From Ahrensia sp. (GTDB taxonomy: Bacteria > Pseudomonadota > Alphaproteobacteria > Rhizobiales > Rhizobiaceae), in NCBI GenBank assembly GCA_002706335.1, contig PAKZ01000005.1, positions 1-64,000 of the forward strand: a DNA stretch of 64,000 nt. The letters are read 5' to 3'. Position 1 is the first letter of the stretch; each line of letters starts with the position of its first letter. Below the pieces are notes generated by a model that saw nothing but the letters and a program-made list of their open reading frames with translations, had not been told where the DNA came from and did not search any database. The position numbers were made by a program, and so were the translations under genes. Positions 520 to 7,544 of the stretch are shown here, in pieces.

Positions 520-721
520 GAGGGCCTCCTGGGTTTTTGGGTCTCGAACGGAGAATGTTCGGGGAGGCGAAGGGGTTCCCGGTGGTGGGGGATAGGTTTG
601 CGATTGGCGGTGATGCTCATACCACCCGCTGGCATTCTCGCGTTCCGGCCGGCAAACGATTCACTGGATCGTTTGCTTTTCGGCCTCCTCACCCGAGGAC
701 CCATTCCGTGAAGCTCGAACG

Positions 722-1012
722 ATGGGCGGTTATATCTACATGCCGGCGAGCAAGAAAGGCGGCACGATCTATATCGGCGTCACCGCCGACCTGTTGCAGC
801 GGGTGTACGACCACAAGCAACGCATCAACAAGAAGGCCTTCACCTCGCAATATGGCGCTGTCCGGCTCGTCTGGTACGAGGAATATGACGACATCACCGA
901 CGCGATCCAGCGCGAGAAATCGCTGAAGCGCTGGCGGCGGCAATGGAAGATCGAGCTGATCGAGGCGATGAACCCGGACTGGAGCGAGCTTTACGGCGGA
1001 ATGGGGTGGTGA
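722..1012 (+). CDS. GIY-YIG family small endonuclease (copy 1)
   Basis: A 96-residue single-domain GIY-YIG protein of the YhbQ/UPF0213 type. The paired motif reads GGYIYM (residues 2-7) and IYIGVT (16-21), followed by QRVYDHK with the conserved Arg, a YGAVRLVWYEE segment, a helix DAIQREKSLKRWRR with the likely metal-binding Glu, and NPDW near the end. Family members cut or nick DNA; many are uncharacterised. The coding sequence starts inside the repeated flank (gaagctcgaacgATGGGCGG), so gene and repeat move together. No clear Shine-Dalgarno is seen. It is 94% identical to the copy at 1245, with 6 substitutions. This copy keeps the first-motif Tyr (Y4), so it is the better candidate for an active enzyme. 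Confidence 0.85.
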   Translation: MGGYIYMPASKKGGTIYIGVTADLLQRVYDHKQRINKKAFTSQYGAVRLVWYEEYDDITDAIQREKSLKRWRRQWKIELIEAMNPDWSELYGGMGW

Positions 1013-1045: not shown

Positions 1046-1080
1046 ACGGAATGGATCCTCGGGTCAAGCCCGAGGATGAC
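1046..1080 (-). repeat. 35-bp terminal repeat, right end of unit 1
   Basis: Contains the palindrome ATCCTCGGG-tcaag-CCCGAGGAT (1055-1077). As its reverse complement it matches 1198-1232 at 34 of 35 positions. The partner at the left of unit 1 survives only as its inner 19 bases (691-709). Confidence 0.85.
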
Positions 1081-1197
1081 GGAGGAGGGGATGGGCTTTG
1101 AGGCTAGTCTCGGACTTTGGCGATTTACCCCATCAACTTTCCATGGTTCGCGGCCGGTCACCGATATCGGCGATTAGCGCTATACGCCCCCCAAGTC

Positions 1198-1232
1198 GTC
1201 ATCCTCGGGCTTGACCCGAGGACCCATTCCGT
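1198..1232 (+). repeat. 35-bp terminal inverted repeat, left end of unit 2
   Basis: Perfect 35/35 inverted partner of 1569-1603. The core is a REP-like palindrome TCCTCGGG-cttga-CCCGAGGA at 1202-1222, followed by an asymmetric inner part (CCCATTCCGT) that runs into the leader of the nuclease gene. Confidence 0.9.
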
Positions 1233-1244
1233 GAAGCTCGAACG

Positions 1245-1535
1245 ATGGGCGGTAATGTCTACATGCTGGCGAGCAAGAAAGGCGGCACGATCTATATCGG
1301 CGTCACCGCCGACCTGTCGCAGCGCGTTTTCGACCACAAGCAACGCATCAACAAGAAGGCCTTCACCTCTCAATATGGCGCGGTTCGGCTGGTCTGGTAC
1401 GAGGAATATGACGACATCACCGACGCGATCCAGCGCGAGAAATCGCTGAAACGCTGGCGGCGGCAATGGAAGATCGAGCTGATCGAGGCGACGAATCCGG
1501 ACTGGAGCGAGCTTTACGGCGGAATGGGGTGGTGA
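1245..1535 (+). CDS. GIY-YIG family small endonuclease (copy 2)
   Basis: A 96-residue paralogue of the protein at 722. Differences are Y4N, I5V, P8L, L25S, Y29F and M83T. The rest is identical, including IYIGVT and NPDW. The first motif reads GGNVYM, so the first aromatic residue of the GIY half is Asn; the second Tyr of that motif (Y6) remains. Loss of the first aromatic may weaken activity, but that is inference. The gene sits between perfect 35-bp inverted repeats (1198-1232 and 1569-1603), an arrangement like a tiny mobile unit or like a REP with its associated transposase, though the protein is not a Y1/HUH transposase. Confidence 0.85.
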   Translation: MGGNVYMLASKKGGTIYIGVTADLSQRVFDHKQRINKKAFTSQYGAVRLVWYEEYDDITDAIQREKSLKRWRRQWKIELIEATNPDWSELYGGMGW

Positions 1536-1568
1536 GTGGTCTGCGTTATCGCGTGCGGCGCGACCACT

Positions 1569-1603
1569 ACGGAATGGGTCCTCGGGTCAAGCCCGAGGAT
1601 GAC
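1569..1603 (-). repeat. 35-bp terminal inverted repeat, right end of unit 2
   Basis: Reverse complement of 1198-1232 with no mismatch. Contains the palindrome TCCTCGGG-tcaag-CCCGAGGA (1579-1599). The distance between the outer ends of the pair is 406 bp. Confidence 0.9.
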
Positions 1604-1714
1604 GGAGGAGGGGATGGGCTTTGAGGCTAGTCTCGGACTTTGGCGATCCGCCGGATTGCTTTCGCCGCTTCCGGTTTGCCACGGATATCGGCGATTAGCG
1701 CTTTGCGCTCAAGG

Positions 1715-1740
1715 TCATCATTCTCGGGCTTGACCCGAGC
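1715..1740 (+). repeat. Truncated REP-like palindrome next to the HEPN gene
   Basis: CTCGGG-cttga-CCCGAG at 1723-1739, preceded by tcatcat. It resembles a left terminal repeat cut off after CCCGAG. Ten bases later the stop codon of the leftward HEPN gene begins, so the HEPN/DUF5343 pair abuts the repeat. Confidence 0.7.
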
Positions 1741-7130: not shown

Positions 7131-7544
7131 TAACCCTCATTTTCACACACTTTCAACCGAACGATCTACCCCCTGACGCGCACGCAGATTTCATGACTTG
7201 CGGTGAGCGAAATCCGCCCGGCCGCAAGGCCGAAGACTGTTACAAGTTATGGAATCGCCGGCGAGTTGTGGACATTCCGGCTGCGCGACCCCCGTCACGT
7301 ATCGGTCATAAAAAGCGACTCGGCGGGGCCGGTCAAGAGTTAGGATTCGGCAAAAGCATTAACGCAACATGTAGTGTGTGGAGATGTGGAAGACGGGGAT
7401 AACGCACAGGCGGGGTTTTCCGGCTTTCCGCAATATGCAGGGCCGCCGAAACCGGCGCGGCACGCCCCCGAAAAAAACCTGCTTGCCGGGACACGCGGCC
7501 GCTCATTAGATGCGATTTCCCGCATGTCGCGCCGTGGAGGAAAG

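Follow-up and report, generated by a model that had tools for sequence, protein, structure and literature searches.

This locus raises the question of what a small GIY-YIG nuclease gene is doing between two inverted copies of one palindromic repeat, and whether such a nuclease could be to its repeats what the RAYT transposase is to other REPs. In the RAYT/REPtron system, it is a HUH tyrosine transposase that acts on the REPs. The DNA analysed here, referred to as the window, comprises the initial 64 kb of contig C5; the genome, 5.1 Mb in 46 contigs, was placed among Oricola relatives by its nearest named relatives. A preliminary description, made from sequence alone, had reported perfect 35-bp inverted repeats at 1198-1232 and 1569-1603, each holding its own REP-like palindrome, with the start codon of the nuclease right inside the left flank. 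It had proposed that this unit of about 406 bp is a minimal mobile or domesticated element, in which the nuclease plays a RAYT-like part.

The observations held, and the length of the repeats had been understated. The two arms are complementary in 36 of 36 positions, one base more at each outer end, and simple arithmetic gives a chance of the order of 1e-12 for a perfect 36-bp inverted pair in 64 kb. The palindrome CCTCGGG-5 nt-CCCGAGG is present in each arm, with an unpaired CGTC on the outside and a CCATTCCG-like tail on the inside (the layout is CGTC-A-TCCTCGGG-CTTGA-CCCGAGGA-CCCATT). Hence, the arms are CGTC-tagged REPs in the sense of Di Nocera 2013 (PMC3733652). They meet the criteria of that family (unpaired CGTC or TGTC tag, 8-9 bp stem, 4-5 nt loop and CCA-type tail), as do the REPs flanking the genes of relatives, and further common features are the AT at the stem base, the inverted dimers and the alphaproteobacterial bias. 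The 5.1-Mb genome holds 13 exact matches to the CCTCGGGNNNNNCCCGAGG pattern and none to the reversed pattern used as a control. The ATG of copy 2 lies 12 nt past the end of the left arm.

The preliminary description had missed a tandem copy upstream and a third relative on contig C1. The gene of copy 1 is 523 bp upstream of that of copy 2 (Table 1), and the two proteins are 94% identical. When the 523-bp period is divided into steps of 50 bp, the likeness of the copies is 92-98% in every one of the first eight; in the spacer it falls to 80% and then to below 30%. The dS between the copies is 0.16, and that of either copy versus Oricola indica is 0.37-0.55. Copy 2 is likely to be a tandem duplicate of copy 1 with breakpoints in the palindromes, and not a fresh transposition. 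At the duplication junction, the left half of a solo palindrome would have been joined to the right half of the left REP of copy 1. The perfect match between the arms of copy 2 would follow from duplication ends that fell in palindromes. The relative on contig C1 has 59% identity and carries CGTC palindromes with a ATCCCTGTG stem on both sides, so the genome contains two gene types, each between its own matched REP pair.

Table 1. Features of the REP-bounded nuclease locus in the window.
Feature	Position	Strand	Remark
Left REP, copy 1	629..709 (limits approximate)	+	hairpin-forming insert within the loop; decay of the left half, which reads CGTCATCCTCG in the O. indica orthologue; read against locus L242
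GIY-YIG nuclease gene, copy 1 (96 aa)	722..1012	+	orthologue at the same locus in O. indica
Right CGTC REP, copy 1	1046..1081	-	repeat search
Spacer between the copies	1082..1196	.	single imperfect symmetric palindrome at the far end of the spacer in O. indica
Left CGTC REP, copy 2, tag outward	1197..1232	+	inverted-repeat search
GIY-YIG nuclease gene, copy 2 (96 aa)	1245..1535	+	dN/dS 0.07-0.20 versus other Oricola-type copies
Right CGTC REP, copy 2	1569..1604	-	perfect inverted copy of 1197-1232
Second, diverged copy of the spacer	1605..1739	.	ends in a decayed REP (about 1713-1739); 523-bp period

Several further features of the locus were observed. Downstream, at 1750-2962 on the minus strand, two overlapping genes encode a Swt1-like HEPN protein and a DUF5343 protein, possibly a pair that acts as a toxin system or in defence. 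Sequences with 80-94% identity to the first 126-204 bases of the window lie at, or close to, the ends of contigs C31, C45 and C12, and therefore another repeat family breaks the assembly near REPs. REP loops with inserts, some of them hairpin-forming, were seen at 629-709 of the window and at 7270-7350 and 7421-7500 of locus L183; palindrome centers are possible insertion spots.

The protein of copy 2 matches the Pfam GIY-YIG family (PF01541, E 1.6e-16) and no other Pfam family at E ≤ 0.01; the Y1 transposase family PF01797 was not matched. Residues Y17, R27, E65 and N84, which we take to be catalytic, are conserved in 98%, 100%, 99% and 99% of 113 proteins, respectively. The gene is under purifying selection (dN/dS among five Oricola-type copies is 0.07-0.23). 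A profile search against solved structures matched 1zg2 and 1ywl. An AlphaFold model with a mean pLDDT of 93 gave a single Foldseek match at E ≤ 0.001, UPF0213 protein BH0048 (1zg2, E 1.7e-4), and the next matches were At-HIGLE and Slx1-Slx4 with E of about 0.03 and weaker. The fold predicted by the model is UPF0213/Slx1-like. Slx1-type enzymes cut branched DNA (PMC9071465, PMC10287932), and we infer that such an activity would fit a palindrome extruded as a cruciform or hairpin.

The Pfam domain, the fold and the single-domain size of about 96 aa are common to this nuclease and the bacterial Slx1-like/UPF0213 GIY-YIG proteins (1zg2, 1ywl; PMC1564403). A C-terminal Asn may set them apart, as N84 is almost invariant here whereas PMC1564403 lists none for the Slx1 cluster, although the structural equivalence of N84 to the UvrC Asn is not established. 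The same paper predicts a role of these bacterial proteins in DNA repair and contains no words beginning with palindrom or inverted.

Relatives of the gene were sought in 387 genomes of the class and found in 164 of them at E ≤ 1e-3, including 135 at E ≤ 1e-10. The class sample comprised 80 stretches taken in roughly rank order, with many on short contigs or near contig ends left out. With the addition of ten plasmid loci picked from 33 records, it amounted to 92 matches, one of which is a gene fragment. The density of hairpins with a GTC tag is 9-11 per kb in the 50 bp next to the gene versus 0.13-0.15 per kb at 2-6 kb, and those near the gene mostly point outward (33/43 upstream and 41/52 downstream). 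An outward REP lies within 200 bp, with one mismatch allowed, on at least one side in 70 of the 92 matches and on both sides in 45. By ORF coordinates, REPs bound 29 of 90 gene ORFs on both sides; among the remaining ORFs of these loci the count is 3 of 549, and the decoy tags CGA, TAC and ACT gave both-side counts of 1, 0 and 0 of 90. The left stem is the same as the right in 24 of the 45 pairs, with a maximum of 5 in 2000 shuffles. A further decoy tag, CTG, was dropped: it is itself enriched, and we read it as the complement of the CCAG tail. In a named set, made up of the 80 top-ranking loci among 587 named ones from GTDB and hence of the closest relatives, REPs were found on both sides of 34 of 85 genes and on either side of 49, the stems were identical in 21 of 34 pairs, and the far-flank hairpin density was 0.58 per kb.

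The Mesorhizobium group first seemed to be free of REPs. On reading three loci we found the same REPs, which the detector had missed because of their long loops, and a widened detector (stricter tag and stem, longer loop) found REPs on both sides of 11 of 14 Mesorhizobium genes. With this detector, outward REPs with the same stem were present on both sides of 18/81 genes of the class sample and 36/84 genes of the named set versus 0/521 and 0/457 control ORFs, respectively. A decoy tag [AG]CAG gave 0/81 and 0/84. No REP was detected within 200 bp on either side of 22 of the 92 genes, or of 28 of 81 with the widened detector. Similarity of the proteins was related to loop class (p 0.0004, 78 genes) only when the host was not controlled for; by swapping within genomes, protein clade and loop class were not significantly associated (p 0.19, 5 genomes).

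Outside Alphaproteobacteria, copies with CGTC REPs on both sides were found in Thiobacillus, Gallionellaceae, Nevskia, Omnitrophota and Parcubacteria bins, which are metagenome bins of uncertain placement. A gene copy in Neisseria gonorrhoeae (L049 3800-4450) has CGTC repeats on both sides at 161-187 bp that look dRS3-like by eye. A copy on a Planktothrix plasmid (L051 3986-4270) lies between an MmeI-type restriction gene and the DISARM gene drmA, and no CGTC REP was detected near it.

We then compared the abundance of the repeats with the presence of the gene by counting the pattern CGTCATN{16,19}ATCCA. The reversed-pattern control understates the background of chance matches, and hence the counts are noisy. 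The median density was 5.7 per Mb in 135 gene-positive genomes versus 3.0 per Mb in 223 gene-negative ones (p 3e-13; 29 genomes with weak matches were left out), and 14 of the 17 genomes with at least 20 patterns per Mb have the gene. The relation persists within families, where a permutation of labels gave p 2e-4 and a Wilcoxon test p 0.007 (41 families, 160 genomes), although a per-family sign test was not significant (25:16, p 0.21). When family effects were included in a regression (n 358, 151 families), the coefficient of the GIY-YIG gene was 0.394 (p 0.0005), whereas that of Y1_Tnp was 0.047 (p 0.71). Y1_Tnp, which is matched in 80 of 387 genomes but not in the window genome, goes with a higher density only when family effects are omitted (p 0.029; p 0.009 in gene-negative genomes). 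Pattern-rich genomes without the small gene do exist. Twelve of 15 that were examined hold only long GIY-YIG proteins, and the remaining three have small GIY-YIG genes without a flanking REP. The preliminary description had held that its proposal would be refuted if homologous genes elsewhere lacked the repeats, or if the palindromes were equally numerous in genomes without the gene. Neither is the case: homologues elsewhere often carry repeats, and the density is higher with the gene, also within families.

A comparison of loci shows that the whole unit is mobile. The window locus, next to a gene that we take from its translation to be ribonucleotide reductase-like, is common to O. indica, which has one copy. 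In a congener (G443) and in O. nitratireducens the unit is found at other loci, and its homology to the window starts at 1196/1197 and stops within about 35 bp of the right REP. Fourteen copies from 12 genomes of Mesorhizobium and one neighbor were compared pairwise. The element aligns in 91 of 91 pairs with 75-91% identity, and most alignments span about 510-580 bp and stop close to the CGTC tags; with the copy L257, only a shorter core aligns. In 82 of the 91 pairs no alignment of the flanks was found on the same strand within a 1.5 kb offset, and in the other 9 pairs 48-325 flank bases aligned. There are at least 41 near-full-length copies in 11 of the 12 genomes searched, and the frame is open in all 11 loci that were opened. 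The element is about 0.41 kb long in Oricola-type genomes, as first described, and about 0.51-0.54 kb in Mesorhizobium. The reading as a minimal mobile element is supported, and that as a domesticated one is not supported for the window. Target duplications, which the preliminary description had proposed to look for at empty sites, were not detected in 13 Mesorhizobium-group copies: the longest flank repeat had a mean of 3.2 versus 2.9 for swapped flanks, and a share of 0.20 of the swapped-flank controls reached the observed mean. In one Mesorhizobium-group locus (L245 5840-6420) the flanks of the element themselves form a long inverted repeat, which places the unit inside a larger palindrome.

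The unit occurs in several states. One orthologous site is readable in 10 of 12 Mesorhizobium-group genomes. Three of them have the full unit in the same orientation, one has it inverted, one has a gene-less form with two palindromes, one has a solo palindrome tagged on both sides, and four are without any REP. Sphingobium TomTYG64 and TomTYG74 have a solo palindrome at a site that is filled with a REP-bounded unit in four aligned strains and has another repeat or none in two further strains. Similarly, a solo palindrome in Sinorhizobium K101 lies where S. meliloti Ak57 has a unit whose gene is truncated, and O. indica has an imperfect solo palindrome at the left border of window copy 2. Gene-less dimers were found as well, five of exactly 84 bp in the fetched G443 stretches and one of 143 bp in the window genome, and they meet the inverted (head-to-head) dimer criterion of CGTC-tagged REPs. 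In Shinella and Novosphingobium, the flanks of element-free sites were too rearranged or diverged to fix the exact ends. For the O. nitratireducens copy and one G443 dimer, the orthologous neighborhoods in the window genome were rearranged or not found. Homing may have produced the solo-palindrome and REP-bounded alleles, which are compatible with it, but neither the direction of change, nor cutting, nor the order of solo, dimer and full states is established. Deletion between the two palindromes accounts for the solo state with no enzyme at all, and slippage between palindromes could give it too. Several of the 84-bp G443 dimers (L204, L205, L206, L207, L186) have partly conserved flanks past their CGTC ends, which suggests a preferred target or a larger mosaic.

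The likely explanation is that the unit is a minimal mobile element made of one Slx1-like GIY-YIG nuclease gene between two outward CGTC REPs, with a RAYT-like role and a different chemistry. It is shown that the unit occurs at different loci, that its ends lie at or near the CGTC tags and are shared by gene-less dimers and solo palindromes, and that the density of the REP pattern follows the gene. The RAYT-like part proposed in the preliminary description is supported by this association and density, whereas the enzyme activity, the cutting of palindromes and a homing-like route are inferred only. The nuclease would be the dedicated enzyme of CGTC REPs. It would recognize its own stem as a hairpin or cruciform and cut at the palindrome, for which there are no cleavage data. 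The break would then be repaired from another copy, and the element or a gene-less dimer would be copied in, similar to homing. Insertion could occur in either orientation because the target is symmetric, and solo palindromes would be either targets or deletion products. Cutting at the palindrome center followed by recombination is consistent with the symmetry of the solo palindrome, the presence of both orientations at one site, the lack of detected target duplications and the REP-loop inserts (window 629-709; L183).

Of the alternatives, passive hitch-hiking survives best, but we consider it unlikely. It would have another, unidentified enzyme or the host spread the CGTC REPs, with the GIY-YIG gene as caught cargo or a DNA-repair gene. 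The REP-pattern-rich genomes without the small gene speak for it, and a gene between two REPs does resemble a composite element. However, the same gene family lies between matched REPs in distant lineages, with stems that differ between elements, whereas none of the 521 and 457 other ORFs of the same loci is so bounded. Furthermore, the nuclease is under purifying selection, and the window genome has no match to a Y1 transposase.

A host benefit is a very unlikely alternative. In this case, the Slx1-like nuclease would resolve cruciforms or stalled forks at REPs, it would be retained close to them as its substrate or operator, and movement would occur only by general recombination between palindromes. 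The UPF0213/Slx1-like fold is in its favor, and recombination or slippage between palindromes can yield both the duplication in the window and the solo states. However, the patchy presence of the gene (164/387 genomes) fits a selfish element better than a housekeeping repair gene, as do several copies at different places per genome with unrelated flanks in 82/91 pairs. A strict RAYT/REPtron, in which a HUH Y1 transposase mobilizes the window-type REPs in trans, would likewise combine REPs, inverted dimers and an associated nuclease gene, and without control for families the density is higher where Y1 is present. It is, however, all but excluded by the lack of a Y1_Tnp match in the window genome, the lack of a Y1 effect within families and the report that no tyrosine transposase gene is flanked by CGTC REPs (PMC3733652).

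The mobile GIY-YIG element that we favor resembles several known systems in part. Like RAYT/REPtrons and REPINs (PMC2817692, PMC3116915, PMC3733652), it has a single nuclease gene flanked by inverted REPs, and gene-less dimers. Unlike them, its enzyme is a GIY-YIG nuclease and not a HUH tyrosine transposase, its tag is CGTC and not GTAG, and in Mesorhizobium there are several gene copies per genome. Strict RAYT identity was rejected, as the gene matches PF01541 and not PF01797 and the tag is not GTAG. GIY-YIG homing endonucleases are free-standing or intron-borne. As in their case, a GIY-YIG nuclease is the sole gene of a selfish element, for which a cognate palindromic site is plausible, but here no intron or intein was seen, the 96 aa hold only the catalytic domain, and the unit is REP-bounded and present at many loci. 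In the Sphingobium, Shinella and Azospirillum records, the only ones in which this was looked at, the unit lies between annotated genes and an intron or intein setting was not found. An insertion sequence with target duplication was also rejected, since direct flank repeats were not detected in the 13 Mesorhizobium-group copies.

CGTC REPs occur in species of all alphaproteobacterial orders and include Neisseria dRS3 and two Rickettsia palindromic elements, and no dedicated enzyme was found for them (PMC3733652, where GIY-YIG is mentioned 0 times). Unlike in that account, a gene family is here bounded by CGTC REPs and some palindromes have long loops. A link of GIY-YIG to CGTC REPs was not found in the open-access literature that we searched, which covered top-ranked results only and no preprints. 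In summary, units of REPs plus a nuclease are a known kind, and what is new is one with a GIY-YIG enzyme; it is not a RAYT, as it has neither a HUH enzyme nor GTAG-tagged REPs. A matched nuclease would make the spread of CGTC REPs directly testable. If the explanation is true, REP palindromes became linked to a nuclease more than once, independently, in the unrelated HUH and GIY-YIG folds; it also bears on the question of PMC1564403 whether further GIY-YIG members are molecular parasites. With about 0.4-0.5 kb and one 96-aa protein, such units would be among the smallest candidate autonomous mobile elements.

A bolder reading, against which we lean slightly, is that the CGTC REPs and the gene together make up a selfish system that moves in a way of its own. 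The 96-aa structure-specific nuclease would cut the symmetric CGTC-palindrome-GACG as a cruciform or hairpin, and repair from an element copy would turn the solo palindrome into REP-gene-REP in either orientation. The REPs of the element itself, with a tag on one side only, would be poorer targets. If true, prokaryotes would have a class of autonomous mobile element that contains neither a transposase nor a recombinase. This class would range over Alphaproteobacteria, with members in Neisseria and bins of other phyla, and would answer what mobilizes CGTC REPs.

Also of note are two observations on GIY-YIG genes in other settings. The Caulobacter GIY-YIG nuclease genes CCNA_00744 and CCNA_01405, whose membership in the small GIY-YIG family is not established, are controlled by XRE regulators and a phage homologue (PMC10688885). 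Among copies of the gene on IMG/VR contigs (L322-L372), 14 of 51 have REPs on both sides, so virus-labelled contigs may carry the element.
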